Positions 3,631 through 61,709 of a DNA stretch of 64,000 nucleotides are shown here, one piece after another. The translations under genes and the position numbers were made by a program. The notes beneath the pieces were generated by a model, which saw only the letters and a program-made list of their open reading frames with translations, searched no databases and was not told the origin of the DNA. Each line of letters starts with the position of its first letter. Position 1 is the stretch's first letter. The DNA comes from Lachnospiraceae bacterium. GTDB lineage: Bacteria > Bacillota > Clostridia > Lachnospirales > Lachnospiraceae. The stretch is taken from positions 124,001-188,000 of the forward strand of contig CABJAW010000008.1 in the NCBI GenBank assembly GCA_902363665.1. The letters are read 5' to 3'.

Positions 3631-3644
3631 GATGCACCAGTGTC

Positions 3645-3685: not shown

Positions 3686-3717
3686 ATCATGATGACGCCT
3701 CTCCCCAATACCCTGAG

Positions 3718-6556: not shown

Positions 6557-6572
6557 CCGATCCCCTCCTCCT

Positions 6573-6625: not shown

Positions 6626-6678
6626 TTGTTTCATCACCACACAGGTGCTTTTCTTTTTCTGAATGGTTGTCTTCATTT

Positions 6679-6820
6679 GTAACTGTTCAGAGCCAAGCAA
6701 AATTTCATAAAAAAGGCGGAAAATGCTTGCATTTTTAAGCCTGTTTTTGAAATTTTATTTGGCGGATACGCCACACCGACGAAATGCGTAGCATTTTGGA
6801 GGTTGGCTCTGAACAGTTAC
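6679..6820. mobile_element. IS66-like MITE, copy 1 (142 bp)
   Basis: Non-coding element with terminal inverted repeats GTAACTGTTCAGAGCCA and TGGCTCTGAACAGTTAC. It is flanked by a perfect 8-bp duplication CTTCATTT (6671-6678 and 6821-6828). GTAA ends plus 8-bp duplications are the known signature of the IS66 family, so it is probably a non-autonomous derivative. Nearly identical copies lie at 12369 and 41543. Confidence 0.9.
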
Positions 6821-6879
6821 CTTCATTTTATATTTTTCTGCGCTGTTTTCAACTGACACCTTTCTCATCGTGTATAGAC

Positions 6880-6922
6880 AAAAATGCCAAAGTGTAAAAA
6901 ATCCTTACACTTCGGCATTTTT
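6880..6922. terminator. Hairpin terminator downstream of tetR-type gene
   Basis: Arms AAAAATGCCAAAGTGTAA and TTACACTTCGGCATTTTT with one mismatch and a 6-base loop, ending ~10 bases from the stop of the minus-strand TetR gene. The A/T runs on both sides make it bidirectional. Confidence 0.85.
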
Positions 6923-6932
6923 GTAAAATCAT

Positions 6933-7469
6933 TTATTGTTTTATTTTTATTCCTTCTGCGATCATCTTATAAATCTGATGCACAACCTCATCCTGATGCT
7001 TCGTATCCTCTTCACTCCAGCTTGCAAGAATCCCAAGGATCGCCATGCTGTGATACCGTATAATCAGATCAAACTCTGCCTGACTGCATCTATGCGCAAG
7101 TTCCTTTCCCTCAGCGCTCTCTTCGATCATCCTCCTGAAATGCGCCAGAAGGATCCGTCCGATCTCATCACGATAATTTGTGAGCATGCTCTGCCTGATA
7201 TATGGCATTGCATTTAAGGAAACTGCAAAGAAAAATTTCAGCCGCTTCTCCGGGTCTTCCTGTGCCTCTGCCTTGCTGCGCAGTCTTTCCGTTTCCCGCT
7301 CGATCACCCAGCTGATCAGTTCCGGAATGTCCTGAAAATGATAGTAAAAGGTCTGCCTCGTGATCTGGCACTCCTCCACGATATCCTTTACGGTCAGCTT
7401 TTTCACATTGTTCTCCATCAGGAGCCTGCGGGCTGCCTCCGCGATGTTGTCTTTCATATCAAGTGGCAT
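6933..7469 (-). CDS. TetR/AcrR family transcriptional regulator
   Basis: A 178-residue TetR-type repressor. The N-terminal helix-turn-helix is at about residues 10-55: DNIAEAARRLLMENNVKKLT, then KDIVEECQITRQTFYYHFQD, where TFYYHF is the classic recognition helix. The rest is a helical ligand/dimer domain with no recognisable pocket. Start ATG 7469 follows GAGGATCCAT; a second Met four codons on is possible. The open frame continues upstream through a repeat-rich stretch but that is not thought coding. The target genes are unknown; mntP lies ~340 bases upstream on the same strand. Confidence 0.88.
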   Translation of the reverse strand: MPLDMKDNIAEAARRLLMENNVKKLTVKDIVEECQITRQTFYYHFQDIPELISWVIERETERLRSKAEAQEDPEKRLKFFFAVSLNAMPYIRQSMLTNYRDEIGRILLAHFRRMIEESAEGKELAHRCSQAEFDLIIRYHSMAILGILASWSEEDTKHQDEVVHQIYKMIAEGIKIKQ

Positions 7470-7494
7470 ATGGATCCTCGTTTCTCGGATGTGT

Positions 7495-7760
7495 TCTCTG
7501 CATTTTGCCCTGCGTTCCGGGCTCAAAAATGCACTTCCAGCCCTCTCGCAGGCAAGCCTGCGTCCGATGCTCTCTGCATTTTGCTGCTGCTTTTCCCTAC
7601 GTTCCGGGCTCAGGCCGCAGACCCGTCGGCTTCGCCGACTTTCCGCAACTTTGTTGCTGCTGTCCGCGGCTGATGGACGTCCCGTCCATCCCAAAATGCA
7701 CTTCCAGCCCTCTCGCAGGCAAGCCTGCATCGGGCTTTCAGTGCATTTTGCTGCTGCCCG
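7495..7760. repeat. Direct repeats upstream of tetR-type gene
   Basis: A 36-bp sequence occurs identically at 7526-7561 and 7693-7728 (begins AAAATGCACTTCCAGCCCTC, ends GGCAAGCCTGC). GCATTTTGCTGCTGC occurs at 7576 and 7743, and GTTCCGGGCTCA at 7514 and 7601. The stretch is GC-richer than its surroundings and contains short palindromes. No gene is supported in it. Confidence 0.75.
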
Positions 7761-7812
7761 GAACTGTTGATGACATTTTATAACACTCATGGGCAAATTA
7801 CAATGTTGTTTT

Positions 7813-8391
7813 TCAGAACAGGGATGCGAGGATTCCGAGGTGCTCCAGCAATATTTTGGTGCCAAGCAGGATCAGGATGACGCCGCCTGTGATCTCTGCT
7901 TTCTTTTTGTAACGCTCTCCGAACACGTTTCCGATCTTTACGCCAAGTGTGGAGAGAAGGAATGTGATTGCTCCGATAAAAAACACTGCCACCGGTACGT
8001 TCGTATCCGGCAGGAATGCGAATGTGATGCCGACTGCAAGCGCATCGATACTCGTTGCCACCGCGAGAAGAAACATGGTCTTTATATCCAGGGATTCGTC
8101 CAGCTGCTCCTCTTCTTTCTTTGAACAGGCTTCCATGACCATGCTCACTCCGATAAAGCCCAGCAAAGTGAATGTGATCCAGTGATCGACCGCTGTGATG
8201 TACTGCTCAAATCTTGAACCGAGCAGATAGCCGATCGCCGGCATCAATGCCTGAAAGCCTCCAAACCAGATACCGCAGGTCATTGCTTTTTTGATCGTAC
8301 ATTTTTTCATTGCAAGGCCTTTACAGACGGAAACCGCAAACGCGTCCATCGAAAGTCCGACTGCCAGCAAAAACAGTTCTATGATTCCCAT
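7813..8391 (-). CDS. mntP: Manganese efflux pump MntP
   Basis: A 192-residue integral membrane protein with six membrane segments arranged as two repeats. It carries the paired aspartate motifs of the MntP family: [14 protein letters not shown] near residue 13 and [15 protein letters not shown] near residue 115. The cytoplasmic loop is acidic ([12 protein letters not shown]). MntP exports Mn2+. Start ATG 8391 has GGAGAAG upstream. The ~340-base leader holds a yybP-ykoY-type riboswitch and terminator, exactly what is expected for a Mn2+-inducible exporter. Confidence 0.93.
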
Positions 8392-8583
8392 AATGCTTCT
8401 CCATTTCTTTTTGAGTTTTCCACCGTGCGAGTGCACACATATCTGTTCTGTGACATTTTCGTCTCATCTGCGGGCAGAACGTGGAAGCGTGAATATCAGC
8501 CTGTCGTAATCGCTGCCTGTCTCGCGGCTTACTGCCCCTTACAGCTAAGCAGACAGCTTATCCGAATCGCTTCTGACGGACAT

Positions 8584-47702: not shown

Positions 47703-48587
47703 TTACTCTTCCATATATTTTTTTATAAATGTCAAAAACTTCTTTGCTGTTTTTTCCATTTTCTGATCATTCCGGAAGAGGCAGACAAACTGAACCGCCT
47801 GTTCCTCGTTTTCCAGCTGTATAGTATCATGTGTAATCGATTTCTCACTGTGACTGAGACAATTCGGACTGATATTGCACAGATTTGTTTTCTGCAGCAT
47901 AGCCTGCATGATATAGTCACTGTTGGTCGTGACCTTCACCTGCAGCTTCCTTTTTTCTTCATCCTTTTTCTTCTGCTCTTTCCACAAAGAAATCCCTGAA
48001 TAATAATCCTCCACACCCTGAACCAGGAAAATTTCATTTCGCTTTTCATGGTCCGTCTTATTTCTGCAGTACAATACTGTCTTTGCCTTTTTTAAAGTAT
48101 AGTAGCCGATATGATTTTCCTGAAACATTTTTTTCAATTTTCCAAGCTGCGTTTCTTCGAAATAAGCAAAGCCAAGCTGATCCTGACTGGCAATAATTCT
48201 CCGCACGATCTCTCCGGCCGGCGCACTGATCACATTATATTTCTCCTCTGCGCCCTCCTGTATATAGTACTCGCAGAATGCGTTAGCGAACCAGGAGCCC
48301 GGCTGAAAGGATACTCTGAGCTCCTCCGTTGCATCCTCCTCTGCACATTCCAGAATTTTTGCGCTGCATTCTACCATACTCAATGCATACTTGTAGATTT
48401 GCTTTCCCTTATCTGTCAGCTCGATGCCATGCTGCTTTCTTTCGAATACTTTTTTCCCCAGCTCCTTTTCCAGCGACGCAATCATCTTACTTACATTCGA
48501 CTGAGAAGTAAACAGTATCGATGCTGCCTTACTGAAGGACTTTGTCTGTGCACACGCAACCATGCACTGTAATTGTCTTAATTCCAT
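47703..48587 (-). CDS. LysR-family transcriptional regulator
   Basis: 294 residues. Winged helix at 1-60: MELRQLQCMVACAQTKSFSK, AASILFTSQSNVSKMIASLE. A degenerate periplasmic-binding-protein-like effector domain follows (~90-290), with weak similarity to known members. The start ATG 48587 follows AAGAGGATC and is 28 bases after the NifB-like stop, so it is the last gene of the cobalamin-riboswitch operon or uses its own promoter. Its target may be this operon. Confidence 0.88.
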   Translation of the reverse strand: MELRQLQCMVACAQTKSFSKAASILFTSQSNVSKMIASLEKELGKKVFERKQHGIELTDKGKQIYKYALSMVECSAKILECAEEDATEELRVSFQPGSWFANAFCEYYIQEGAEEKYNVISAPAGEIVRRIIASQDQLGFAYFEETQLGKLKKMFQENHIGYYTLKKAKTVLYCRNKTDHEKRNEIFLVQGVEDYYSGISLWKEQKKKDEEKRKLQVKVTTNSDYIMQAMLQKTNLCNISPNCLSHSEKSITHDTIQLENEEQAVQFVCLFRNDQKMEKTAKKFLTFIKKYMEE

Positions 48588-48614
48588 TGATCCTCTTTTC
48601 CTGTATTACATTAT

Positions 48615-49421
48615 TCATATCACTCCACAGGCATCTGCCCGGCATTGTCTGCAGAATGTAAACTGACGCATCCAGCTCGCGGCCTGCATGCGCGCAGCGC
48701 CAAGCTCTTCCTGTGTCGGCGCTCTGTGACTGCTCATTTTTCCGCACGGAATCATCGGCATAATATTCATTACGGCAGCACCTGCGCTTTGTGCCATCCG
48801 GGCAATTGCATCGATTTCCTTTTCGTTGACGCCCGGGATCAGAACGGTATTTACTTTTACCGTCAGCCCTTTTTCGCAGCTTTTAAAGAGGCCTGCCTGC
48901 TGACGCTCCAGAAATTCCTCCAGCAGCTCCTTTGGGTCTGAGTTCTCCTCTCTGCCCGGAATAGCGACCCGCAGATAAATTTTTTCTGCTGTCCCCACAG
49001 AAGCGGCATTGACTGTCACCGTCAGTGTATCAAGCCCTGCTTCCTTAAGCTCATCCACGCTTTCTTCCAGCATAAGCCCGTTCGTGCTGGTACACAGGAT
49101 CAGGTCCGGATACGCCTTACGCAAAAGAAATAAGGTCTCAAACGTTTCTCTGTTTACGAGCGGATCTCCCGGTCCTGCGATCCCTGCCACGCGGATCCGC
49201 GGTTCCTTCTGCAGTGCCTGCGCAGTTCGCTCCAGCGCTTCTTTTGGCGTAATGATTTTTGAGGCGACACCAGGCCTGGACTCGTTCACACAGTCATACT
49301 TCCGGTCACAGAATGCACACTGAATGGTGCATTTCGGTGCCACCGGAAGATGAATCCGCCCAAACTGCCCGTGACACTTTTCCTGAAAGCACGGATGCTC
49401 CAGTATTACTGAAGACCGCAC
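48615..49421 (-). CDS. NifB-like radical SAM protein
   Basis: 268 residues, clearly of the NifB type. Visible: N-terminal HPC (C11), radical SAM CTIQCAFC (C31, C35, C38), KYDCVNESRPGV, GIAGPGDPLVN, and C-terminal CRQCRADACGVI (C257, C260). NifB fuses two 4Fe-4S clusters and inserts a carbide to make the 8Fe-9S-C core of nitrogenase cofactors; all three sets of cluster ligands are kept. The NifX-like C-terminal domain of some NifB is absent. A GTG start at 49421 follows GGAGGTGG and overlaps the NifH-like end by 16 bases. Confidence 0.9.
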   Translation of the reverse strand: MRSSVILEHPCFQEKCHGQFGRIHLPVAPKCTIQCAFCDRKYDCVNESRPGVASKIITPKEALERTAQALQKEPRIRVAGIAGPGDPLVNRETFETLFLLRKAYPDLILCTSTNGLMLEESVDELKEAGLDTLTVTVNAASVGTAEKIYLRVAIPGREENSDPKELLEEFLERQQAGLFKSCEKGLTVKVNTVLIPGVNEKEIDAIARMAQSAGAAVMNIMPMIPCGKMSSHRAPTQEELGAARMQAASWMRQFTFCRQCRADACGVI

Positions 49422-50197
49422 AGCTGCTCCACCTCCTCATCCAGAAGCGGACGCGGAATACAGCGCGGATTTCCTGTGATCATTTTGTCAGCAATCGCCC
49501 GAAATGCCAAAGCCGCCTCGCAGTCCGGCTCCATCTCGACCACTGTTTTTCTCGCGATCTCTGCCAAACCGATCTGTCCGCTCATCGGTACACAGCCAAT
49601 CACCTGCGTCCCGATCGCCTCCGCAAAACGCTCCACCCGCTTTGGATCGCTGCAGCCGCTTCTTCCATTATAGATGATCCCGGCAAGACGAACTTCATTT
49701 TCCTGCGCATACTTCGCAATTCCGCGGCAGATATTGTTTGCTGCATAAATTGCCATAAAATCAGATGTTGTCACAAGATACACATCGTCCGCAACACCTT
49801 CCCGCAATGGCATGCTAAAGCCACCGCACACCACATCGCCAAGCACATCATACAACACAACGTCCCGGTCTGCAAGAAGATCTCTCTCTTTGATCTCACG
49901 CAGTGCAGATGCGATTCCACGGCCGGCGCACCCTGTCCCCGGCTCCGGTCCGCCGGACTCAATACACAAAATCCCTTTATATCCCGTGACTGCAATCTCG
50001 TTGTTTTCTGTGCTGCTTCCAAGCTGCTGCAGCACCGTCGGGATCCTGCGTCCAACCAGACACCGCGTCGTGTCTGCTTTAGGATCACATCCTACTACAG
50101 CTGTTTTCAATCCGCTTTCGGCCATTGCCGCTGCCACATTTGCGGCCGTTGTTGATTTTCCGATGCCGCCCTTTCCATAAATACAGATTTTTCTCAT
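49406..50197 (-). CDS. NifH-like ATP-dependent reductase
   Basis: 263 residues of the nitrogenase iron-protein family. Walker A GKGGIGKST at 8-16, switch region CDPKADTT, and both cluster cysteines: C90 in GPEPGTGCAGRG and C124 in DVLGDVVCGGFSMP. It would form a dimer with one 4Fe-4S cluster and deliver electrons to the component-1-like proteins. The start ATG 50197 overlaps the previous stop as ATGA and follows AAGGGAG. A longer in-frame start is inside the upstream gene. It could equally be a NifH, CfbC, BchL or MarH relative. Confidence 0.93.
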   Translation of the reverse strand: MRKICIYGKGGIGKSTTAANVAAAMAESGLKTAVVGCDPKADTTRCLVGRRIPTVLQQLGSSTENNEIAVTGYKGILCIESGGPEPGTGCAGRGIASALREIKERDLLADRDVVLYDVLGDVVCGGFSMPLREGVADDVYLVTTSDFMAIYAANNICRGIAKYAQENEVRLAGIIYNGRSGCSDPKRVERFAEAIGTQVIGCVPMSGQIGLAEIARKTVVEMEPDCEAALAFRAIADKMITGNPRCIPRPLLDEEVEQLCGLQ

Positions 50198-51468
50198 TGA
50201 TATATCGCTCCCTTTAACGTACGTGCTGCAAATGCCTCGCAAAAAAGATCCTCCAGCAGACAAAGCGTCCCCTCTGCTCCGATATACGGACGCTTCGTCA
50301 GACAGATCCTGTCAAACACCGGAAAATCAAACCGCAGAAGCGGAATTTCCAGCTCATCCGCAAGCTCCTGCTCAAAGGATGAACCAAACAAAAATGCCGT
50401 CTCTGACCTTCGCACTTCATCATACGTTTCTTCTATATCCTGCAGTGCTTCTCTTTTTGCACAAACCTCGATCTCCATTCCAAGCTCCGCACTTAAAAAC
50501 CGTGCAAGTCCGGCTGCCCTGGCTCCGCTTCCGATCACAGCTGCCGGAAGACCATAAAGCGCCTGCAGATACGAATAGATTCCTTTTGCTCCCTCTGCCG
50601 TCCGCGCCTGAAATGCTGCTTCTTCTGCGTCAAAATTCAGGCCAAATCTGGTCTCCAGTACCTTCCAGAGCTGACGCGCTCCGGTCAGGCCGTACGGATA
50701 ATCAAGACAGACATACGGTATGCCAAACCGCTTTTCCATGTCCTTTGCAAGCTCGACCCCGTATCCAAATACCAGATTCAGATCTGCCCCGGGTGCGCGG
50801 CGCACGCCTGCGAGATCTGTCTGTGAAAAGGCCGTGCAAATTCTGGCCTTTCCGCCAAATAGTTCCTCAAGTGCTTCAAGATCGAAAACGTGGTGTGGAT
50901 CGTCTGCGCCGATTCCAAGGATATTCACTTGCGGAACTTTGCATTTTTCTGCATCTTCGTTTCCTTTTTCCGGAACTTTTTTCTTTGTTTCCTGCCCTTT
51001 CTCCGGCATTGGGGACATTTCTTTCTCAGTCTGTGGCCCTTCCATCAGCATCCCGAGTGCTTTCATTCCCGCTTCATATCCGACCCGAAAATTTCCCCTG
51101 TATCCGGCCGCCTCCATGGCAATGACTTTTCTTCCATGGGTCCGTTCAAAAGCCGCCGCGATCCGTTTCACATCGTCCTGAATAATATCACTGACACAGC
51201 CCGTCACAATAAAAATAACAGACGGATGATACAGTTCCCCCGCAGATGACAACGCTTTTTCAAGTGCATGTTCCCCTCCGAATACCACCTCATTATCGCT
51301 GATCACCGTACACGTCTGCCGTACCTCTGTCATATCACACGATGCAAAATGGAATGCCATGGAACCAAAATTACAGCCTACCACGGAATGAAACAGGATC
51401 ACCCCGTCGCTGATTCCGCCAAGTGCCTGCTGTGCTCCGAGAAGCTTACATCCAAATGGTGCTTTCAT
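50194..51468 (-). CDS. Nitrogenase component 1-like protein with P-cluster-type cysteines
   Basis: A 424-residue oxidoreductase/nitrogenase component 1 family member. Three cysteines are spaced like P-cluster ligands: C7 (PFGCKLLGAQQAL), C32 (HSVVGCNFG) and C91 (FIVTGCVSDIIQDD). VVFGGEHALEKAL is a family block. A Lys/Glu-rich insert at ~145-170 is unusual. At LNLVFGYGVELAKDMEKRFG no Cys matches the FeMo-cofactor ligand of NifD. The start ATG 51468 is 1 base after the previous stop. It probably pairs with the protein encoded just upstream. Substrate unknown. Confidence 0.88.
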   Translation of the reverse strand: MKAPFGCKLLGAQQALGGISDGVILFHSVVGCNFGSMAFHFASCDMTEVRQTCTVISDNEVVFGGEHALEKALSSAGELYHPSVIFIVTGCVSDIIQDDVKRIAAAFERTHGRKVIAMEAAGYRGNFRVGYEAGMKALGMLMEGPQTEKEMSPMPEKGQETKKKVPEKGNEDAEKCKVPQVNILGIGADDPHHVFDLEALEELFGGKARICTAFSQTDLAGVRRAPGADLNLVFGYGVELAKDMEKRFGIPYVCLDYPYGLTGARQLWKVLETRFGLNFDAEEAAFQARTAEGAKGIYSYLQALYGLPAAVIGSGARAAGLARFLSAELGMEIEVCAKREALQDIEETYDEVRRSETAFLFGSSFEQELADELEIPLLRFDFPVFDRICLTKRPYIGAEGTLCLLEDLFCEAFAARTLKGAIYQ

Positions 51469-51469
51469 T

Positions 51470-52969
51470 TTATTCTCCCTTCTTCTCCAGCCACATCCTC
51501 TGCCACATTTCTCTGGCTGCCCGAGCGCTTACGCTGTCATAATCTGCATACCGCTGCTCCTGAAACGGCATACGGTTCAAAAGAAGCGCATCCTTCCTTC
51601 CGGCATTGCGAATGCGGCGTTCCAGGCGCTTTATATTCCGATGCCACGACTCAAAGCTCAGGGAGGTCATTTCTGTTCCGATCGGGATCAGCGGCGCCCC
51701 ACAGCCTTCCAGCGTGAAGTCTCCGGTACCAAGAACTGCATCCGCCTGAGCAAAGCAGTTTTGCAGCTGCTCCCGATCCGGATTAAACAAAATCCGCACC
51801 TGCGGCGCATACAGCTTCGCTGCTTCCCGGATGCGTTCCACCAGCTGTTCTTCGATGTCCTTCGTAATGTTCAGGCTTCTTCTTTGTTCTTCTGTCAGAA
51901 TCACACAGAGCGCACCGATTCCCACACCAAATTCCTTTGCAAACAGCTTCAGGGTAAATGGCGCATCGGAGATTCCACGGCATACCAGTACGCAGTGCTT
52001 TGATCCGAGATAAGCAAGGCTCTCTTTTGCAAGCATCCTGGTCTCTTCCGTTTTTTTCTCTATCTTTTCTTCCATTTCCGGCAAGATACAAAGCTTCTCC
52101 GCGATATCCCGGTAAAAGAGTGCAATTCCATCCAGTCCCGTATACCGTCCGTTTCCGTTTAGCTGCATATAATCAGTTCCAAACCGCTCCTTCATCCTTC
52201 TTGCCCAGCGAATCCGCTTCACCAGATTCAGCTGAGCCGCAGGCGCATGCTCCAGCGCAGCGACTCCGGCGCTCGGAATCCAGGTGTTCACTGTAACTCC
52301 GCAAGTATTCAGAAAGGCTTCCATCTCCCGCAGCACAAGCCGTCCTTCGCTTCCCCAGCCCACCGTTTCGATATTGACGCTGCGCGAAATGATCTCCTGC
52401 GGTTTCATCACCTGTTCTACGATCGCATACAGCGCCTCTGTGAAGCCACAGCCCTTCAGCTCGATCTCCAGACGGGTATCCCCTGTAATCTTCTGCTTCG
52501 CGATCTCCTTCAACCGGTTTCTTGAGTAATTTTTATCTCTGTGTGAGAAAAGCTCTGACTGAATTGCCGTCACTTTAATCCCCTCTCGGCGCAGCTTCGC
52601 GGCTGCTGACCGGATATCTTCGTTCAAAATATCGCTGACCGGACTCGGAATGATAAACACCATCTCCGGTTCATACCGTTTCCAGGCCTCCCTGACTGTC
52701 TTCAGAAGCTTTTCTTCTCCGCCGAAAATAATTTCCTGCTCTGTCAGATTCGTACTAAGAAGCGGATAAAACGGCTGATGCCTTCTGCGTGCCGAATAAC
52801 GGTAATGGTAGCCGCAGCCGACCGGTGCATGAAGCACTGCCACCACATTTCCTCCAATTTCTCCGATTGCACCGACACTTCCGGAAATTTTCCCGTTCAC
52901 TCCGTATGCATGCAGAATTGAGGACGGATACAGCCGTGATGCAAGGTCGTCATAAAAAATTGAGTACAT
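51470..52969 (-). CDS. Nitrogenase component 1-like protein, cysteine-poor partner
   Basis: 499 residues. Family blocks include VVAVLHAPVGCGYHYRYSAR (C52), LSTNLTEQEIIFGGEEKLLK and PEMVFIIPSPVSDILNEDIR. Of the three P-cluster cysteine positions only C52 is kept; the first and third sites read without Cys (SPVSD). The LNLVKRIRWARRMKERFG block has no cofactor cysteine. It could share an asymmetric cluster with the 424-residue partner, as in BchN/B, CfbD or MarDK. Strong GGGAGG before ATG 52969. Confidence 0.87.
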   Translation of the reverse strand: MYSIFYDDLASRLYPSSILHAYGVNGKISGSVGAIGEIGGNVVAVLHAPVGCGYHYRYSARRRHQPFYPLLSTNLTEQEIIFGGEEKLLKTVREAWKRYEPEMVFIIPSPVSDILNEDIRSAAAKLRREGIKVTAIQSELFSHRDKNYSRNRLKEIAKQKITGDTRLEIELKGCGFTEALYAIVEQVMKPQEIISRSVNIETVGWGSEGRLVLREMEAFLNTCGVTVNTWIPSAGVAALEHAPAAQLNLVKRIRWARRMKERFGTDYMQLNGNGRYTGLDGIALFYRDIAEKLCILPEMEEKIEKKTEETRMLAKESLAYLGSKHCVLVCRGISDAPFTLKLFAKEFGVGIGALCVILTEEQRRSLNITKDIEEQLVERIREAAKLYAPQVRILFNPDREQLQNCFAQADAVLGTGDFTLEGCGAPLIPIGTEMTSLSFESWHRNIKRLERRIRNAGRKDALLLNRMPFQEQRYADYDSVSARAAREMWQRMWLEKKGE

Positions 52970-52984
52970 ATTATTCCTCCCAGC

Positions 52985-53036
52985 TGATACATAAAAGGCG
53001 TATCTGCACTTCTTTTTCTGCGCAGATACGCCCAGC
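52985..53036 (-). promoter_or_regulatory. Intercistronic hairpin between ABC and nitrogenase-like genes
   Basis: Minus strand GGCGTATCTGCGC, loop rich in A, then GTGCAGATACGCC followed by TTTTATG. It may attenuate or stabilise, separating importer genes from the reductase genes. Confidence 0.6.
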
Positions 53037-53052
53037 TCTTACATTCTGTTGT

Positions 53053-54153
53053 TCACTGCAGAAGCCCCATTTGCTCTGCTTCTTTTTTCAGTTCTTCACA
53101 TCTTCGGTTTATTGTCCCGAACCGACTGACTGAGCAGATCACATGGCTGCAGCGCCGCATCACTGCAAGCGCCTCCTGTACCTTTTCTTCTGATATTTCC
53201 TCAAAGGCCTGCTCAGAAATGACATGTTCGGACAGTGCGCGTGCCACCTGATAATCCACATCATTTTCCGGCAGGACACCGACCGCAAAAGGGATCCCCT
53301 TGCGCTGCAGCTGACGGAAAACAGGGATACCGCTTCCACCGCCGGCAATCACAAAGACTTCCGGTTCACCCTTTGGTGCATCTAGCTCCAGACAGCCAAA
53401 TGCCGCGTTGTAGCTTCCGGTCGTCACACCATAGAGATGATGGATATATTCGTCTGTGAAGATCTCCTCCGGCACGCCCATGCGCTCGATCCGATCACCA
53501 TGCACGCAGATCACAAGATCGGACACCTTCTGTGCAAGATCCAGTTCATGCAGTGACATAAGTACCGCGACATGCTTTTCATGCACCATCTGCTTCAAAA
53601 TAGCCAGCAGCTCCAGCTTGTGCCGGATATCAAGGAAAGAGGTCGGCTCATCGAGTACGATTACTTCCGGCTCTTGGCAGATGGCTCTTGCCAGCAGAAT
53701 ACGCTGTCTCTGTCCGTCGCTGATCGCTGAAAAATCGCGGTCGCGCAGCTCCCAGGCATGCACCAGCTGCATGGCACTCTTCACCTTTTCATGATCTTCG
53801 GCTCCAAGAATACCAAGTGTCCCCGTATACGGATATCTTCCCGTTGCAACAACATCCTCACAGGTCATCAGCTCCGGATGAATCCGCTCGGTCATAACGA
53901 CTGCCATTTTCCGCGAAATCTCTTTATCAGTCATGCGCTCCATCGAGGTATTGTCGAGCCAGACTGCGCCGCCCACCAGCTTCAGCTGCCGGATCAGGCT
54001 TTTTAAGATCGTCGATTTTCCGGCGCCGTTCGGACCGATCAGCGTAAGGATCTGCCCTTTTTCAAGGGAAAGACGAATATCACGGATCAGTGGTTTTCCG
54101 TCGTAGCCAACGGTCAGATTTTCTGTGTATACAAAACTTTTCTGCTTTTCCAT
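53053..54153 (-). CDS. FecE/BtuD-type ABC ATPase with extra C-terminal domain
   Basis: 366 residues. The ABC domain covers ~1-255: Walker A GPNGAGKST, Q-loop region, signature ISDGQRQR, Walker B VIVLDEPTSFLD and H-loop MSLHELD. The extra C-terminal ~105 residues start at EVFVIAGGGSGIPVFRQLQR and include GIPFAVGVLPENDVDYQVAR, a Rossmann-like glycine-rich segment not found in ordinary FecE or BtuD. It energises uptake by the FecCD-like permease next door. ATG 54153 directly follows the permease stop. Confidence 0.9.
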   Translation of the reverse strand: MEKQKSFVYTENLTVGYDGKPLIRDIRLSLEKGQILTLIGPNGAGKSTILKSLIRQLKLVGGAVWLDNTSMERMTDKEISRKMAVVMTERIHPELMTCEDVVATGRYPYTGTLGILGAEDHEKVKSAMQLVHAWELRDRDFSAISDGQRQRILLARAICQEPEVIVLDEPTSFLDIRHKLELLAILKQMVHEKHVAVLMSLHELDLAQKVSDLVICVHGDRIERMGVPEEIFTDEYIHHLYGVTTGSYNAAFGCLELDAPKGEPEVFVIAGGGSGIPVFRQLQRKGIPFAVGVLPENDVDYQVARALSEHVISEQAFEEISEEKVQEALAVMRRCSHVICSVSRFGTINRRCEELKKEAEQMGLLQ

Positions 54154-55170
54154 TTATCGTTTCCCTTTTCTGTTTATCATAACATAGATCACTACCGGCG
54201 CTCCGAAAATCGCTGTCACAGAGCTGATGCTAAGCTCTGTCGGTGCAAACACGGTACGGGCAATCAGATCGCAGAACAGACAGAATGCCGCACCGCCCAG
54301 AAAGCAGGCCGGGATGACCAGAATCGGCTTTGCCGTTTTTAACAGGCTTTTCATCAGCTGCGGCACCGCAATTCCGACAAATGAGATCGGCCCGGCAAAC
54401 GCTGTCACACAGGCACTCAGAATACTCGAAAGCAGGATCAGCTCCACGCGGAACCGCTTGATATTCACGCCCATGTTGCGCGCATAGCCCTCGCCCAATT
54501 GATACGCCCCCATCGGCTTGGAGAGCAGAAATGCCAGCAGCACAGAAACTGCCACAACGCCCGCCATCATCGCTACATTGCTCCAGTCTGTGCCGGAAAA
54601 GCTTCCCTGCGACCAGTTGTGCAGGTTTACGATGTTAGAATCCTCTGCAAACGTCACCACAAAATCCGTGACCGCCGAACAGATATAACCAATCATAACT
54701 CCGCTGATGACCAGCATGGACATATTTTTTACCTTACGCGAGACAAGCAGCACAAATCCCATTGAGATCAGGGAACCCGCAAATGCAGATACAATCATCA
54801 GACCGGAACCGGCTGTCATTCCTTTCCCAAGAAGGAAGATCATCGTCAGAGCTACGGTCAGTTTTGCACCGGAAGAAATACCAAGCACAAACGGACCCGC
54901 GATCGGGTTATTAAAGAATGTCTGCAGCAGAAAACCAGACACCGAAAGTGCACCGCCCAGAATCAGTGCCGCAAGAATACGCGGCAGGCGGATCGACCAC
55001 ACAATATTTCTGGCCGTCTCGTCGCCGCCTTTTTGAAACAGGATCTGAAACACCTCGCGCACTGTCATCGATACACTTCCGGAATTGATATTCCAGAAAA
55101 TGAGCACAAGAAGAAATGCCGTAAGCATCAGAAATGATGCGATGTAACGTATTTTTGCTTTGTTTTTCAT
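54154..55170 (-). CDS. FecCD-family ABC permease
   Basis: A 338-residue permease of the iron-chelate/heme/cobalamin uptake family (BtuC/FecCD) with about ten hydrophobic segments. Conserved blocks: RLPRILAALILGGALSVSGF, PFVLGISSGAKL, and late GPISFVGIAVPQLMKSLL and IFGAPVVIYVM. The start ATG 55170 follows GGTAGGA; the longer frame reads back through an intercistronic inverted repeat (about 55215-55297) and is unlikely. It acts with the binding protein and ATPase on either side. Confidence 0.92.
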   Translation of the reverse strand: MKNKAKIRYIASFLMLTAFLLVLIFWNINSGSVSMTVREVFQILFQKGGDETARNIVWSIRLPRILAALILGGALSVSGFLLQTFFNNPIAGPFVLGISSGAKLTVALTMIFLLGKGMTAGSGLMIVSAFAGSLISMGFVLLVSRKVKNMSMLVISGVMIGYICSAVTDFVVTFAEDSNIVNLHNWSQGSFSGTDWSNVAMMAGVVAVSVLLAFLLSKPMGAYQLGEGYARNMGVNIKRFRVELILLSSILSACVTAFAGPISFVGIAVPQLMKSLLKTAKPILVIPACFLGGAAFCLFCDLIARTVFAPTELSISSVTAIFGAPVVIYVMINRKGKR

Positions 55171-55299
55171 ATTTTTCCTACCGTTCCAATCCACAATTGG
55201 TATTTTCGCAGTTCGATCCAAACGCAGAATAAGCATCCATCTTACCCACCACTTAGTGCTCCGCGCACTTGAAGCGGCGGAATGCTTATCTGCGTCCAT

Positions 55300-56487
55300 T
55301 TACTCAAGCCGGTACAGATACGTCAGTCCCTGCGGATCCTCCTCTGTCAGCATCTGATGCATATCCATGATCACATCGCCCAGACACGTTGTCTCCTGAA
55401 ACATGCTCTTTGTCAGGCACCAGACATTTCCTTCCTTTACCGCCTTGAAATCCTTTAAAAGTGCACTTTTTTTCAAAAGCTCGTCAAGTGACTTTAGCTC
55501 TCCGTCGATCGTGCTGTTATAAATGATGTAATCCGCATCTTTGGCTCCGGCATAGAAGTCTTCCATGCCCATGTTCATCGTGGACTGGCCTTCCTCGTCC
55601 GCTCCAAGATCTTTAAAAATGTACTGACCGCCGGCCAGATCGATCATTTTGGACACATAGTCTCCTGCCTTGCGCACATTCGCCGCACCCATGGAATTGA
55701 TATAGAAGAAAGCCACGGTTTTTCCGGTATTCTCCGTATTTTCCAGAGATTTCAGCTGTGATGCCTGTTCCTCAAAAAGTGCCTCTGCCTCATCCTCTTT
55801 TCCGAGCAGCGCACCGTAAAGCTTCACCCATTCGGTGCGGCCAAGCGGATGGCTTTCATAGCTGGAATGCTCCACCAGCACTGGAATTCCAAGCTCCTCC
55901 AGCTTTTCCTTCACCTCCGGCTTATGATAGATCATCGTGGACTCAATCGCAAGATCGCAGCCTGCAGCCAGAATCTGCTCATAATCCGGTGCGCTGTACT
56001 TTCCTGCAAACGCAATACTTCCGTCTTCAAGCGCCGTCTTCGCCTTATCGATATACCAGCCATCTGCATTCGTTCCGGACAAACTGATATGATCCAGCGC
56101 ATCCAGTCCGCAGAAAAAGTCCATCGCAGAGGTTGCCACCAGATAAATGCTCTTCGGCGTGTGCGAAAGCACTGTGATGTCGTCCGGCAGATCCTCCGGC
56201 GCCTCTTCCCCATCCGGTACCAGCAGGAACTCCCCATCACCCTCGATTGTAAAAAGCTTATAGCCGCCTTCGTAGTAATTCACGGAAAACTGATCCGCAT
56301 AGGAAAGCTCCAGCGCATGATCCCAGGTAAGCCCCGGAAGCGCCGGTGCTTCGGAAGCCGATGTCTGAGCATGCTCATTATTTTCTGTCTCCTGCGCCCG
56401 TGCTGCCTGCGGCACCGCCGCAGGGACAGCGCATACCATTGTCGTGCTCAGCACTGCACACAGGAACCTCACTGTATGTCGTTTCAT
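55300..56487 (-). CDS. ABC substrate-binding protein (FecB/BtuF-like)
   Basis: 395 residues. Signal peptide at 1-~32 (RHTVRFLCAVLSTTMVCAVP, ending ARAQE) without a lipobox cysteine, then an acidic spacer. The helical-backbone binding domain (PF01497 type) covers ~110-390, with SGTNADGWYIDKAKTALEDG, YEQILAAGCDLAIESTMIYH and FYAGAKDADYIIYN. Such proteins bind siderophores, heme or cobalamin. Unusually soluble for a Gram-positive binding protein; the NEAT-like lipoprotein encoded next to it may hold it at the surface. The ATG at 56487 is preferred over a TTG at 56508. Confidence 0.88.
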   Translation of the reverse strand: MKRHTVRFLCAVLSTTMVCAVPAAVPQAARAQETENNEHAQTSASEAPALPGLTWDHALELSYADQFSVNYYEGGYKLFTIEGDGEFLLVPDGEEAPEDLPDDITVLSHTPKSIYLVATSAMDFFCGLDALDHISLSGTNADGWYIDKAKTALEDGSIAFAGKYSAPDYEQILAAGCDLAIESTMIYHKPEVKEKLEELGIPVLVEHSSYESHPLGRTEWVKLYGALLGKEDEAEALFEEQASQLKSLENTENTGKTVAFFYINSMGAANVRKAGDYVSKMIDLAGGQYIFKDLGADEEGQSTMNMGMEDFYAGAKDADYIIYNSTIDGELKSLDELLKKSALLKDFKAVKEGNVWCLTKSMFQETTCLGDVIMDMHQMLTEEDPQGLTYLYRLE

Positions 56488-56508
56488 TTTTTTCGCCTTT
56501 TCTGTCAA

Positions 56509-57405
56509 CTACTTGTTCAAGTTAAAGGTCAGTGTATACTCGATCTCGTGCGGCTCGCTCATTGCAACTGTATCCGCAACAACCTCCATCGGATAATCAA
56601 AACCATCTACCGGAATTTCAAACGTAGAATTTCCTTCTGTATTGACCGGCTCGTATTTTTCACCGCCAACAAGCATATAGTCATAATTCGGGCTGCTCCA
56701 TACGATCGTTGCTGTCACTTCGCCGTCCTTTACCACCAGGTTCGCCGGTGAATCCACAGTCGCTCTTCCGCTTCCGCCTTCAAGTGTCACATCAGCCGTA
56801 TATTCGCCGTCCTCCAGACCAAGCTCCTCTGCCGTTACCTTTTCACCCTCACCTGCCTGCGCACCCTCATCTTTTACCGGATTTTTGACGCTGACCTTGT
56901 GGTCATACCATTTGCCCTTTTTGCCGATGGCTGCCACGGTAAACTCTTCACCGATCGCCGGTACCGGGATATCAAAGCCATAAACCTCCTCCGACATTCC
57001 ATCTTTATACGTTACGGTATCTGTGGTCGGCTCAAGAAGCTCTGCTCCGTCCTTTTTTGCATCCTCGGAGGTTCCGGCGAAAAGGTTCAGGAAGCCTTTT
57101 CCGCTGAGGCTTACATGAATCGTCATCTTGCCATCTTTTACCGTCAGCACACCCTTGCCGTCGTTTGCCTCATTGACATGGAACATTGAGCTGTCTGTAT
57201 CAAACTCAGCGGTATAAACACCATCCTCAAGAACCTCTCCTGTTGTGGCCTCCGTGCTGTCCTCCGATGCCTCCACGGCAGCCTCGGTGCCTGCCTCAGA
57301 AGTAACCTCCGTCGTGCTTTCTTCCGCAAATACTGCCGGGCAGCCACTCATTAAAAGAGATGCCGATGTAACCAGTGATAAAAAAAATGCTGTAGAGCGT
57401 TTCAT
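56509..57405 (-). CDS. Lipoprotein with two NEAT-like (iron-transport-associated) domains
   Basis: 298 residues. Lipobox LLMSGC at ~15-20 (Cys acylation), Glu/Thr-rich spacer, then two beta-rich repeats. The first (~62-175) contains GVYTAEFDTDSSMFHVNEAN, GKMTIHVSLSGKGFLNLFAG and GKWYDHKVSV. The second (~195-298) contains DGEYTADVTLEGGSGRATVD and GEVTATIVWSSPNYDYMLVG. The layout (DGxY, VKDGxM, YDH) fits NEAT/iron-transport-associated domains that bind heme or related tetrapyrroles. The family call is by pattern only. The start ATG 57405 follows AGGAGG. Confidence 0.72.
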   Translation of the reverse strand: MKRSTAFFLSLVTSASLLMSGCPAVFAEESTTEVTSEAGTEAAVEASEDSTEATTGEVLEDGVYTAEFDTDSSMFHVNEANDGKGVLTVKDGKMTIHVSLSGKGFLNLFAGTSEDAKKDGAELLEPTTDTVTYKDGMSEEVYGFDIPVPAIGEEFTVAAIGKKGKWYDHKVSVKNPVKDEGAQAGEGEKVTAEELGLEDGEYTADVTLEGGSGRATVDSPANLVVKDGEVTATIVWSSPNYDYMLVGGEKYEPVNTEGNSTFEIPVDGFDYPMEVVADTVAMSEPHEIEYTLTFNLNK

Positions 57406-57486
57406 AATAATTCCTCCTGTATTTTGTTTTCTGTATTTTGTTTTCCGCATTTTTCCAAAATTCTCTGCAGATATTTTGCTGCTACC

Positions 57487-57528
57487 AAAAGCAGCCCGGA
57501 TGTCTTTCAACATTCCGGGCGGCCTTTT
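57487..57528. terminator. Intra-operon terminator after cobaltochelatase gene
   Basis: Minus strand GCCGCCCGGAATGT, loop, ACATCCGGGCTGC, then TTTTGG. GC-rich stem ~35 bases after the chelatase stop; probably partial, giving more chelatase than importer mRNA. Confidence 0.65.
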
Positions 57529-57560
57529 TATGAAAGCTTCAGGACAAAAGCTGACTTATC

Positions 57561-58778
57561 TTATTTTGCGATGGAGTCGATTGCGTCCTTTGTATGTGCA
57601 ACATACAGCTGCTCAACTGCTTCGATTCTTCCAAGTCCTTCAATCTGAACATCTACGCTGTCAAATGCGCCTGATCCTACAAACTGAGTTTTCCAGGAAT
57701 CCTCGTCATCGCCTGCCATATCGTTGTTTGCATGATCACCTGCTACTACCATCAGCGGACGAAGAATTACTTTCTTGAATCCTGCATCCTTAACCTTCTC
57801 GATTACTGCCTCGCATGCAGTATCTTCCGGCTCACCTTCAACGGTTCCGATGAATGCGTTTGTGAATCCGAGATTCTCCATCTGTGTCTGCATCTGATCG
57901 TAGGTTACATTTGCGGTATGAGAGGTACCATGACCCATGAATACGAATGCTACGCCATCTGCAGCAGCTGCTGCCATGTCATCGTATCCTGCCTCTTTTA
58001 CAGCTGCATCTGTAATTGCCTGTGCAACGGCCTTCTTGTCATCGTTGATTACGGTAGCGTCGTCGCCAACCTCGCCAAGCATCGGCTCAGCGATCGCTAC
58101 GGACTCAAATTTATCCTTGTAGCTGTCAATTGCCTCTACCATCTCATCGTACTCAGCTCCATGCATCAGATGGGTCGGCTGTACAACAAGGTTCTTTACG
58201 CCATTATCAACTGCACGCTGAAGTGCCTGATCCATATTGTCGATCTTCTCATCGTCTCTTGCCTGTACATGGTTGATGATGATCTGTGCAGTAAATGCTC
58301 TTCTTACTGCCCAGTCCGGATAAGCTGTCTGCAGTGCATCCTCGATGCCCTTGATATCCTCGGCACGGCTGTCATTGAAGGAAGTACCAAAGCTTACAAC
58401 CAGGATCTCATTGTCACCAATCTCATCTGCATTCCGCGGATCATCCTTGGAAGCATCACCTGTATCGCGTCCGAAGTACTCCGGGCTTGCCTCTTCGCCC
58501 TCTACCAGCTCCTTCTGTGCATCGGTCAGTGCATCCCATGCTTCCTTTGCAGCGGTGCAGTCTGCATCCGTTGTATCGGTTCTTTCCTGTACGTAAATTT
58601 TATCGATCAAAGCTGCAACATTGTCAGCAGCTGCCTGATCTGCATCTTCTGTGCCGGCCTCAGATGCTGCCTCTGTAACAGCCTCTGTCTCCTCTGCATA
58701 GATGCCAACCGGGCTTACCATCGTAAGTGTGGATGCTGCCATCATCATTACAAGTGCTTTTACTACTCTGTTTTTCAT
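57561..58778 (-). CDS. cbiK: Exported sirohydrochlorin cobaltochelatase, CbiK family
   Basis: 405 residues. Signal peptide at 1-~28 (VKALVMMMAASTLTMVSPVG), then an acidic helical region (30-110). The CbiK-type chelatase occupies ~120-400: ILVVSFGTSFNDSRAEDIKG, VVQPTHLMHGAEYDEM, FMGHGTSHTANVTY, VEGEPEDT and LMVVAGDHANNDMAGDDEDS. These include the metal-ligand histidines. CbiK inserts Co2+ into sirohydrochlorin, normally in the cytoplasm; exported forms (CbiKP of Desulfovibrio) are known and bind heme. First gene after the cobalamin riboswitch; AAGGAGG precedes ATG 58778. Confidence 0.9.
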   Translation of the reverse strand: MKNRVVKALVMMMAASTLTMVSPVGIYAEETEAVTEAASEAGTEDADQAAADNVAALIDKIYVQERTDTTDADCTAAKEAWDALTDAQKELVEGEEASPEYFGRDTGDASKDDPRNADEIGDNEILVVSFGTSFNDSRAEDIKGIEDALQTAYPDWAVRRAFTAQIIINHVQARDDEKIDNMDQALQRAVDNGVKNLVVQPTHLMHGAEYDEMVEAIDSYKDKFESVAIAEPMLGEVGDDATVINDDKKAVAQAITDAAVKEAGYDDMAAAAADGVAFVFMGHGTSHTANVTYDQMQTQMENLGFTNAFIGTVEGEPEDTACEAVIEKVKDAGFKKVILRPLMVVAGDHANNDMAGDDEDSWKTQFVGSGAFDSVDVQIEGLGRIEAVEQLYVAHTKDAIDSIAK

Positions 58779-58889
58779 GTCTTTTTCCTCCTTAATCTTC
58801 GCTGCACATTTCGAATTTTCTATTATCCGATGCAGCGCCTGACAGACAAATTATGCATTTGTTCTCCGATTAATCAAACGCCCCACTGT

Positions 58890-58914
58890 AAAAAACGGGG
58901 AATCTGACCCTCGC
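58890..58914 (-). terminator. Probable expression-platform terminator of B12 riboswitch
   Basis: Minus strand CGAGGG-TCAGATT-CCCCG followed by six T. It lies between riboswitch and cbiK start; the long interval 58779-59095 has no gene. Confidence 0.6.
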
Positions 58915-59094
58915 GGCAGTCGCCAACACTTGATTCATGCGACGCATTGCTCGCGGGAATAAACGCTAAGGCCGATACTAAGACATGAAGACCACCCGGT
59001 AAAATGGCAAAAAAAGAACCTTCTACTCATGGTAAAAGGATCGCGCGAAAATGAAAAATGGTACAATCAATTACTCGTGATCCGGAACATGCCC

Positions 59095-59300
59095 AGTACC
59101 GACAACAGGCAGGTTTCCTGGCTTGCAGATCAACGCATCAGCCGCCTTCCCGGTTTCCCAGTGACATAATGGCCTTGCTCCCTGCTTACAGTGACGAGAT
59201 CGCGCAGGACTTTCACCTGCTTCTCTTTTACCCGTTTCTCTGCTTCGGTCTTTTGCAGAGAAAACGGCACCTGAAGTTTCCTTATTCAGTTTTATTTCGG
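59095..59300 (-). promoter_or_regulatory. Cobalamin riboswitch
   Basis: The minus-strand RNA contains CAGGUGAAAGUCCUGCGCGA, GUCACUG, GGGAAACCGGGAAGGCGG and the B12 box AAGCCAGGAAACCUGCC in the right order and spacing. It begins ~25 bases after a promoter and leads into cbiK and the nitrogenase-like operon. Expected effect: adenosyl- or other cobalamin represses the operon. Confidence 0.93.
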
Positions 59301-59329
59301 AACGCCTGCATTCCGGCGCTTCTGGCAGT

Positions 59330-59358
59330 ATAATAGCACACTCTGACGGAAAGTACAA
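59330..59358 (-). promoter_or_regulatory. Promoter of the riboswitch operon
   Basis: Minus strand -35 TTGTAC (59358-59353), 17-bp spacer, -10 TATTAT (59335-59330). Confidence 0.65.
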
Positions 59359-59415: not shown

Positions 59416-60603
59416 TTACTCTTCTTTTCCCTGTCTGCACAGCGCCACTCCGAGCAGCAACAACACCGGAAAAACACCCCCTGCAAGAATGCCCTTTTTC
59501 AGATCGCCGCCAAAAAACTCCGATACAAATCCGACCAGAGTCGGACCGCCGGAACAGCCAACATCACCGCCAAGCGCCAGAAGCGCAAACATCGCAGTAC
59601 CACCCTTTGGAAGCGCAGCCGCTGCCTTGCTGAACGTTCCCGGCCACATGATACCAACAGAAAGTCCGCACAACGCACAGCAGACCAGGCTTAACTGAGG
59701 CATCCCAAGCAGAGAAATACCCAGGTAGGAAGCAATACACAGCAGACTGCTCAGCACCATAAAACAGTCCAGCGAGATCCTGTCCCCGTATTTTCCATAA
59801 AATGCCCGCGACGCTCCCATCAAAACCGCAAACGCCATCGGGCCTGCAAGGTCGCCTGCCGTCTTTGTGATGCCAAGGCCTTTTTCTGCAAGTGTCGAAG
59901 CCCACTGGCTTACGCCCTGCTCACTTGCTCCGGCACAGATCATCATGACGAGCAGGATCCAGAATGTTTTCATTGTAAGCAGTTCTTTTAAGCTCAGCCC
60001 TGTTTCGCCCTCTTCCATTAGAGACCGGAGCGGTACTTTCGTAAATGCAGCGGCATTCACAAGCGGTACGATTGCCCACAGCACCGCAAGAATCTTCCAG
60101 TTTGTGATGCCAAAGGCTGAAAAGAAAACCGTAGAGATCAGTACGACTCCTACATGGCCCCAGCAGTAAAACGAGTGGAGCATGCTCATCGCCTTTTCCT
60201 TATTGTCCGACGGACACGACTCAACAACCGGGCTGACGAGCACCTCCAGAAGTCCGCCGCCGATCGCGTAAATCATGACTGCAATCAGGATGCCTGCAAA
60301 TGCGGATGGCAAAATTTCCGGCAATACCGTAAGAAAAATCAATCCGGCTGCGGACAGGATATGTGCGAGTACCATACAGAACCGGTATCCGAGCCGGTCC
60401 ACAAAACTAACTGACAGAAGATCCACGAGCAGCTGCACACCGAAATTGAACGTGATCAGCATCGTAATCTGGGAAAGCGGGATATCGTACGTCCGCTGAA
60501 AGGTCAGAAACAGAAGCGGTACGAAATTGTTGACGATCGCCTGCACAATATACGCGACAAAGCAGGAACGAATCGTCTTATTGTATTCATTTTTTGTGTT
60601 CAT
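59416..60603 (-). CDS. MFS transporter
   Basis: A 395-residue major facilitator with twelve hydrophobic segments. The signature loop 2-3 region reads VSFVDRLGYRFCMVL, loop 8-9 YGKYGDRISLD. Overall layout resembles sugar/fucose-type MFS proteins (IGGGLLEVLVSPVVESCPSD). Substrate unknown. The start ATG 60603 overlaps the stop of the LytTR-type gene as ATGA, so the pump is coupled to that regulator. Confidence 0.85.
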   Translation of the reverse strand: MNTKNEYNKTIRSCFVAYIVQAIVNNFVPLLFLTFQRTYDIPLSQITMLITFNFGVQLLVDLLSVSFVDRLGYRFCMVLAHILSAAGLIFLTVLPEILPSAFAGILIAVMIYAIGGGLLEVLVSPVVESCPSDNKEKAMSMLHSFYCWGHVGVVLISTVFFSAFGITNWKILAVLWAIVPLVNAAAFTKVPLRSLMEEGETGLSLKELLTMKTFWILLVMMICAGASEQGVSQWASTLAEKGLGITKTAGDLAGPMAFAVLMGASRAFYGKYGDRISLDCFMVLSSLLCIASYLGISLLGMPQLSLVCCALCGLSVGIMWPGTFSKAAAALPKGGTAMFALLALGGDVGCSGGPTLVGFVSEFFGGDLKKGILAGGVFPVLLLLGVALCRQGKEE

Positions 60604-61416
60604 TCTTCCAAATTTTCTCCTTCCCGCGCAAAAAGCGATACATTTTCTGTCTTCGCCTCGCTGCAGCGTTTTTGGAGTTCTGTCTTTACCGCCATATATT
60701 TCTTTTCCGGCACCGGAAGCTCGATCCCGTTCTGAAGCCGGATCCGAAAGCGGCGAATCTCACTTACATACTGCGGATTTACCAGATAGCTGGCGTGGCA
60801 GCGTACAAACAGATCCGGATAACGGTTCATCAGGGTCTGCAGACTTTCCACCGACTCATAATCTTCTTCTACTGTGTGAATCACGGTATGGCTTCTGGCC
60901 GTCTCCACATACAGAATCTGGCTGCTGTTCAGAAACAGGAGCGCCTTACTGATGCTTTTGATCTGCACCCGTTCTGAACGCTGTTCTCCTGCAAGCATAA
61001 ATTTTTTATAATTGGATTCATAATGGATCGGGTAAATGGTATCCCGTTCATCGTATACGATCGCATTTGAAATATGGCACACCCGAAGCCGGATTGTTCC
61101 TCTCCGCTCCGTGACCGTCAGCTGGATACGCTGTCTGACCCGGTTCACACTGCCATCCGGCCAGATCGTATCCACTGTAAATACCAGTATAATTTCACAT
61201 ACATGACTGTTTGTCGTGGGGATCGGAATCACTTTGAGGTCGTGAACCACATGCAAAAGCTGCTACCAACGCCTCTCTTGTCCGTATGATCTGATTCTCT
61301 GCCGGTCCGATCCACAATACATCCTCATCACATGCATCCAAAAACGGCTGTATGTCATTATTATAGTAGCGCATCACAATATCCACGGTCTGCTTTGCCA
61401 CTTCCTGAATATTCAT
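60600..61416 (-). pseudogene. SnoaL-like/LytTR regulator with a frameshift
   Basis: The first part from ATG 61416 (GGAGGAG upstream), MNIQEVAKQTVDIVMRYYNN then DIQPFLDACDEDVLWIGPAE, is a SnoaL/NTF2-like domain. At CTTTTGC near 61258 the frame must slip to continue HVVHDLKVIPIPTTNSHVCE, then the C-terminal LytTR DNA-binding domain (ILYVETARSHTVIHTVEEDY, FVRCHASYLVNPQYVSEIRR). Two overlapping open frames (61416-61195 and 61256-60600) result. It is either a genuine mutation, a sequencing error at the T-run, or programmed slippage. Confidence 0.75.
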
Positions 61417-61546: not shown

Positions 61547-61709
61547 CTTCACACTGTGCAGCTGGCTGCCATTTTACAGGTCCTTTAGCTTTGCGTCACA
61601 ACCTTTCGGTTGTTTTGCCCTTTTACAAATTTTTGTAAAAGTTATTATACCATTTCCGATTAAAAAAACAAGCCCCGCAAAATGATTTCGCAAGCTCCCA
61701 CCAGAGACA

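Follow-up and report, generated by a model that had tools for sequence, protein, structure and literature searches.

A rare, putatively deep nitrogenase-like clade linked to cobalamin riboswitches and its union with a CbiK-NEAT-FecBCD gene set in a Lachnospiraceae operon

A 64,000-nucleotide stretch of a Lachnospiraceae bacterium (assembly GCA_902363665.1, contig CABJAW010000008.1, positions 124,001 to 188,000; the whole stretch is called the window) carries ten minus-strand open reading frames (ORFs), spanning 47703-58778, behind a cobalamin riboswitch (RF00174, 59091-59289, minus strand; 97 bits against a gathering score of 31.5, E 6.1e-23), as an initial annotation had described. The run joins genes for an exported-type CbiK-fold protein, a NEAT-like protein and a FecBCD-type importer (module 1) to genes for two nitrogenase-like component-1 proteins (A and B), a NifH-like and a NifB-like protein (module 2). 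Trees and cysteine patterns indicate that module 2 represents a rare and deep nitrogenase-like clade of uncharacterised proteins that belongs to neither Nif nor Mar, and because close relatives of the enzyme lie behind B12 switches in other bacteria, our data suggest that its role is in cells for which vitamin B12 is scarce. We tentatively favor, without regarding it as probable, a B12-repressed system that would import a metal chelate or tetrapyrrole and use ATP-driven electrons to reduce it, in the service of cobamide supply.

Results

Phylogenetic placement of the nitrogenase-like proteins

Window proteins were classed by Pfam and NCBIfam profile scores. A homolog search with component-1 A (51470-52969, 499 aa; PF00148, Oxidored_nitro, 125 bits) matched 129 proteins of 7995 scored candidates, and the best 120 of these matches include a 'Candidatus Limivivens' protein with 78% identity. 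A quick component-1 tree was calculated from 113 rows, after 7 of the 120 hits had been dropped for length and two component-1 proteins fused to NifH had been excluded, and a careful tree from 47 chosen rows with NifDEKN, Mar, a Mar-sister group, two further nitrogenase-like groups and BchN/B. Both trees place component-1 A and component-1 B (50194-51468, 424 aa; PF00148, 222 bits) on branches of their own that fall in neither Nif nor Mar; in the 47-row tree these branches have support of 100/99 and 100/100 and are separate from the NifDE and NifKN clades. The deeper order is weakly supported, and the two Bch rows are very long. The Mar clade was recognized by its matches to two R. rubrum Mar chains, 9fmg_A (471 bits) and 9d9u_C (431 bits). 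The NifH-like ATPase/reductase (49406-50197; PF00142, Fer4_NifH, 315 bits), which retains the four common cysteines, falls in a clade of its own with 8 rows (SH-aLRT 99, quick tree). The tree check proposed in the initial annotation thus returned separate clades outside Nif and Mar, from trees that held no Isr or CfbD sequences, Isr being compared by description only. In the NifB tree, six of the seven other NifB rows of the family group with that of the window, and the one from locus L006 falls with the NifB of Nif and Mar.

Cluster ligands and comparison with known enzymes

In component-1 A, the sole cysteine of P-cluster type is the Cys88-type residue (Cys52), with glycine at the place of Cys62 and proline at that of Cys154 (threonine in the outgroup). 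Counting the window and taking proteins of 440 aa or longer, Cys52 is kept in 105 of 106 rows; in component-1 B, where the lower length limit was 350 aa, Cys7 and Cys32 are each kept in 120 of 121 rows and Cys91 in all 121. An equivalent of Cys275, the ligand of the iron-molybdenum cofactor (FeMo-co), is missing in both families. Component-1 A also carries, after a segment of roughly 30 residues, a GCG motif at 173-175 (Cys174, 106/106 rows) that is not readily matched to any classical ligand; Cys174 would be our leading candidate for the binding site of an Fe8S9C-type cluster, should the enzyme hold one. The NifB of its own that had been claimed for this enzyme holds up. The NifB-like radical SAM protein (48615-49421, 268 aa) matches NifB along its full length (6y1x, 262 bits; solved NifB, 230 bits; TIGR01290, 275 bits, under the NCBIfam cut-off of 343.65). 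It keeps the radical SAM cysteine triad and the K-cluster-type Cys/His residues, the core H9, C11, H24, C31, C35, C38, C110, C257 and C260 being present in 14 of 14 rows; which of these binds which cluster is our assumption.

Against this background, we compared the module with characterized systems, whose reports were available in part. Membership of NifDK or NifEN was rejected on the missing Cys275-type ligand and the position outside the Nif clades. MarBHDK likewise combines a radical SAM partner with NifB motifs, an H protein and two component-1 subunits; MarB carries all conserved NifB motifs, and Mar holds nitrogenase clusters, namely a P-cluster and an Fe8S9C cluster bound via Cys270/His429 (PMC12552129). 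That cysteine is missing in the window proteins, and with no Cys270/275-type ligand and a place outside the Mar clade, we rejected Mar membership. BchLNB gives the best fold match of component-1 B and also lacks the FeMo-co ligands, but Bch uses three cysteines and one aspartate (PMC11423573) and no carbide cluster, whereas the pattern here is three cysteines plus one, so BchNB was set aside, as was CfbCD (CfbD absent from the trees), because the operon encodes two different component-1 proteins and not a single-subunit D homodimer. IsrBHDK shares more features, namely a component-1 pair with one plus three P-cluster-type cysteines, a separate H, a radical SAM partner and no Cys275/His442 in D (PMC11423573). 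The window pair indeed shows one cysteine in the D-like and three in the K-like subunit without Cys275. However, the Isr radical SAM protein is BciD-like and resembles NifB in motif only, whereas here we find a whole-length NifB relative, the gene order A-B-H-NifB, and FecBCD or Dpp importers behind B12 riboswitches.

Clusters in Firmicutes and archaea described in 2012 also place nitrogenase-like genes beside ATP-binding cassette (ABC) importer genes in anaerobes and lack FeMo-co ligands, but they differ in their cysteine patterns (3+0, 2+1, 3+3), and the available part of that report names no riboswitch (Dos Santos 2012, PMC3464626). Four of our comparison loci (L105, L107, L110 and L112), from another nitrogenase-like group, carry three cysteines in one component-1 subunit but lack them in its partner, as do the C. 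botulinum-type clusters of that survey, with FecBCD genes confirmed in L112. Our literature search found no paper joining 'nitrogenase-like' with 'cobalamin riboswitch', which is weak evidence of novelty, as most subscription papers lay outside the search.

Riboswitches and importers in the nitrogenase-like family

An alignment of 29 component-1 A rows was used for a pattern scan of the species-genome collection, which gave eight loci (L001-L008); an earlier scan with a single sequence as query had given no match. Whole-genome searches added L101 (genome G358) and the outgroup L092 (G432), all family loci being selected by component-1 A similarity alone. The family is rare: at E 1e-40, the order of genome G005 gave matches in 2 of 392 genomes and that of G007 in 2 of 394 (starting genomes counted). 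The contigs are labelled Lachnospiraceae, Oscillospiraceae, other Clostridia and a Chloroflexi metagenome-assembled genome (MAG).

The B12 link proposed for the nitrogenase-like genes is upheld by these loci, 10 of 11 of which, window included, contain a cobalamin riboswitch: all eight of L001-L008 (the one in L001 cut by the contig end) and L101, with none detected by the scan of the L092 stretch. The riboswitch ends 125-127 nt before component-1 A in L001, L002 and L007 (Flavonifractor plautii ATCC 29863), which are close kin and therefore count as little more than one case. In L003-L006, L008 and L101 it lies ahead of importer genes, at a distance of 2.5-7.3 kb upstream of component-1 A. 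Among other nitrogenase-like comparison loci, riboswitches were found in 0 of 9 in one set and 1 of 7 (L116) in another, and in 0 of 7 scanned Mar or Mar-sister loci; these are rough controls, since stretch lengths differ, and the scan left out, among others, L083-L086, L088, L090, L094, L096, L098, L100, L106, L109, L114, L115 and L121. The exception, L116 (10565-13027), belongs to a different nitrogenase-like group and carries NifH, two component-1 genes, Peripla_BP_2, FecCD and an ATPase, with two cobalamin riboswitches upstream, one next to the NifH-like gene, and so adds another B12 link that is independent of the first.

In the window, L001 (NifB cut), L003-L007 and L101, A and B are followed by NifH- and NifB-like genes; the L008 and L092 stretches contain neither. 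In L002 (Flavonifractor sp. An306), component-1 B is mostly absent and NifH lacks its first half at 3590-4167, where the B match stops at residue 49 and the NifH match begins at 149 with no run of N, while A and NifB are intact on either side; this gap is either a deletion or an assembly error. The importers of module 2 vary between FecBCD and Dpp/Nik types. The order is riboswitch, Peripla_BP_2, FecCD, ATPase, A, B, NifH, NifB in L101; FecCD, ATPase, two Peripla_BP_2 genes, A, B in L092; and a short Peripla_BP_2 ORF, FecCD, ATPase, A, B in L008. The L002 contig holds two Peripla_BP_2 genes, FecCD and an ATPase, with five riboswitch hits in all. L004, L005 and L006 each carry a five-gene importer of oligopeptide/nickel type (SBP_bac_5, two permeases, two ATPases), of which the substrate-binding protein and one ATPase were confirmed in L003. 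In L007, five tandem SBP_bac_5 genes (1-8577, minus strand; 478-558 aa, the last cut by the stretch end) lie behind a cobalamin riboswitch of their own, divergent from the nitrogenase-like operon. The plasmid collection gave no DNA match, and the plasmid protein matches, among those listed, were annotated nif genes, 'nitrogenase component 1' or proteins without annotation.

Module 1 as a separate operon type

Module 1 begins with the CbiK-fold protein (57561-58778, 405 aa; PF06180, 247 bits; signal-peptide-like N terminus), followed by the NEAT-like protein (56509-57513), which has a lipobox-like N terminus and two similar domains and is the weakest family assignment among the ten genes (PF05031, 26 bits, under the Pfam cut-off of 32.8). 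A FecB/BtuF-type substrate-binding protein (55300-56508; PF01497, Peripla_BP_2, 129 bits), a FecCD/BtuC-type permease (54154-55299; PF01032, 271 bits) and an ABC ATPase with a C-terminal extension of about 120 residues (53053-54153; PF00005) complete the set. In sequence searches of the PDB, the CbiK-fold protein scored almost equally against Salmonella CbiK (1qgo, 132.2 bits) and a 'heme-binding protein FetB' (9b86, 131.9 bits), and its GHG, GDH and EY motifs, which we take to be catalytic, align with both. The name 'exported cobaltochelatase' given in the initial annotation is therefore too narrow, and exported tetrapyrrole-binding protein or chelatase is safer, with both export and activity predicted. 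The nearest solved chains of the permease are FhuB, HmuU and BtuC alike (153-170 bits), those of the substrate-binding protein are weak only, and the ATPase matches the corrinoid ATPase model PRK09536 over 10-341 at 209 bits, far under the cut-off of 537. The metal or tetrapyrrole theme proposed for this importer is supported.

CbiK matches at E 1e-20 occur in 71 of 196 genomes of the order of G005. We picked 12 of the 196 by their longer CbiK domain (>820 bp), as in the exported type of G005, and together with a G006 locus these form a stand-alone set (L152-L164; stretches of 7.5-19 kb, some ended by the contig). The NEAT-like gene adjoins CbiK in all 13 loci and is fused to it in frame in three (L153, L157, L159), which argues that the two act together; 11 have the substrate-binding protein, 11 FecCD, 9 the ATPase and 12 the riboswitch. 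Besides the window, a pattern search found the NEAT end motif in 2 of the 13 loci, too few to interpret. Nitrogenase-like genes occur in none of the 13 stretches. CbiK-NEAT-FecBCD is thus a separate Lachnospirales operon type behind a cobalamin riboswitch. The window permease is 56-77% identical to those of stand-alone module 1 and 30-32% identical to those of L002 and L008, which, with the stand-alone operons, argues that the window joins two modules. The draft genomes G005 and G006 have both modules on different contigs, with the CbiK-NEAT-substrate-binding protein set behind its own riboswitch (L015 and L014, respectively). Taken together, the genome survey divides the association first proposed, in that the riboswitch goes with both modules, whereas exported CbiK lies without nitrogenase-like genes in the 13 stand-alone stretches. 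The claim that capture, import and reduction form one pathway thus finds no support in that form, and we set the single-operon, single-pathway reading aside as unproven.

The Iht/FetB system of Porphyromonas gingivalis (IhtABCDE) likewise combines an exported CbiK-like protein with a binding protein, permease and ATPase, IhtB being the CbiK-like part of this heme/iron uptake system (PMC10913741, available in part), and FetB is described in a partly available review as a porphyrin chelatase that exchanges metals (PMC13402209); we infer that chain 9b86 is the P. gingivalis protein. The window set differs in its NEAT-like protein and B12 riboswitch, and no TonB receptor is found among the ten genes.

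Operon layout and expression signals

The ORFs overlap or nearly abut, apart from 47 bp between CbiK and NEAT and 83 bp between the ATPase and component-1 A. The NEAT start is probably internal (MKRSTAFF at 57405), as is that of FecCD, which would leave two gaps of about 155 and 129 bp, and the NifH-like protein, whose ORF opens at 50263, probably starts at 50197 with a 4-bp overlap with component-1 B. The terminator scan found no minus-strand site within the operon gaps, and a single transcript may well span all ten genes. The promoter originally placed ahead of the riboswitch is absent from the consensus scan; a TGcTATTAT string resembling an extended -10 element is readable by eye about 40 nt upstream of the riboswitch. 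Neither the fold of the leader between riboswitch and CbiK (z-score -0.47) nor the number of terminator-like sites in the region (15 versus 10.3 expected, sd 3.5) backs a definite expression platform. The last gene encodes a LysR-type regulator (47703-48587; PF00126, LysR HTH), for which tblastn found no match in L001-L008; it does not belong to the conserved gene set, and we rejected it as a module member.

Discussion

As a plausible mechanism, the operon would join two B12-repressed modules. Outside the cell, module 1 would capture a ligand of metal-tetrapyrrole or corrinoid type, whose metal it may exchange, and would then import ligand or metal. The NifH-like protein would then hand ATP-driven low-potential electrons to the component-1 A/B complex, predicted to bind an iron-sulfur cluster between its subunits through 1 + 3 cysteines; this complex could reduce the imported metal chelate or tetrapyrrole and so provide cobalt or cobamide self-supply when B12 is low. 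An iron-sulfur cluster of carbide type would come from the NifB-like protein and be bound in a non-classical manner.

The main rival is an organosulfur route, unlikely in our judgment, in which the component-1 complex cleaves a C-S bond in the manner of Mar or Isr and yields methionine or sulfur while the methionine synthase that depends on B12 stands idle. In its favor, Isr has a similar cysteine pattern, likewise lacks Cys275 and also works with a radical SAM partner (PMC11423573, available in part), and Dpp-type importers could carry peptides or sulfur compounds. None of the nine riboswitch-bearing family genomes, several of them MAGs, has a match to the B12-independent MetE (PF01717), but MetE is nearly absent from these orders anyway (9/146 and 3/147 genomes), so its absence says little and we dropped it as support; the MetH activation domain gave matches in 3 of 10 genomes that are too weak to interpret. 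The Mar-like form of this route, offered earlier as the alternative, is weakened by the missing Cys270/275 ligand and by the position of A and B outside the Mar clade, and the organosulfur route as a whole also faces the lack of B12 riboswitches in the seven scanned Mar or Mar-sister loci and the FecBCD-linked L008, L101 and L092, which look unlike sulfur uptake.

Metal handling rather than tetrapyrrole chemistry, with a cobalt or other metal chelate imported and the reductase freeing the metal by reducing metal or ligand, is an improbable explanation, although metal chelates are carried by FecBCD as well as by Nik/Dpp-type importers, and the swapping of these importers within one family fits a metal chelate better than one large ring. 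CbiD, a marker of anaerobic corrin synthesis, occurs in 6 of 10 family genomes (several are MAGs), and such de novo synthesis also fits metal handling; an ATP-costly nitrogenase-type reductase, however, would seem excessive for reducing cobalt(III) or iron(III). We regard it as very unlikely that the nitrogenase-like module is a passenger with an unrelated role, whose B12 control came with the neighboring uptake operon. The module does move between contexts, and the window importer comes from the other operon type, as its permease identities indicate, but the riboswitch directly upstream of component-1 A in three related loci and the riboswitch links across the diverse family contigs speak against it.

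Returning to the reduction of an imported chelate or tetrapyrrole for cobamide supply, its boldest form, to our minds a long shot, is that a B12-repressed nitrogenase-family enzyme with a NifB-made carbide cluster reduces imported cobalt- or other metal-tetrapyrroles, turning unusable rings into cobamide precursors. In methanogens, L-cluster-like clusters feed F430 (PMC12176620, available in part), so that a part played by such clusters in tetrapyrrole chemistry, apart from nitrogenase, has a precedent, and a carbide-cluster tetrapyrrole reductase, if real, would be the bacterial counterpart of L-cluster-driven F430 activation. Many nitrogenase-like groups have no known substrate, and here the riboswitch suggests when the cell wants the enzyme, namely at low B12. 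A response to B12 scarcity would be added to the known functions of the nitrogenase family, with a bearing on competition for cobamides in the gut. The substrate question is testable because F. plautii ATCC 29863, a sequenced strain, has the module directly behind a cobalamin riboswitch.

Neighboring features of the window

Beyond the operon, a cyclic di-GMP-I riboswitch (61554-61629, minus strand; 60.5 bits) lies about 300 bp upstream of a gene for a LytTR-domain regulator (60600-61256), which abuts a gene for a major facilitator superfamily transporter (59416-60603).

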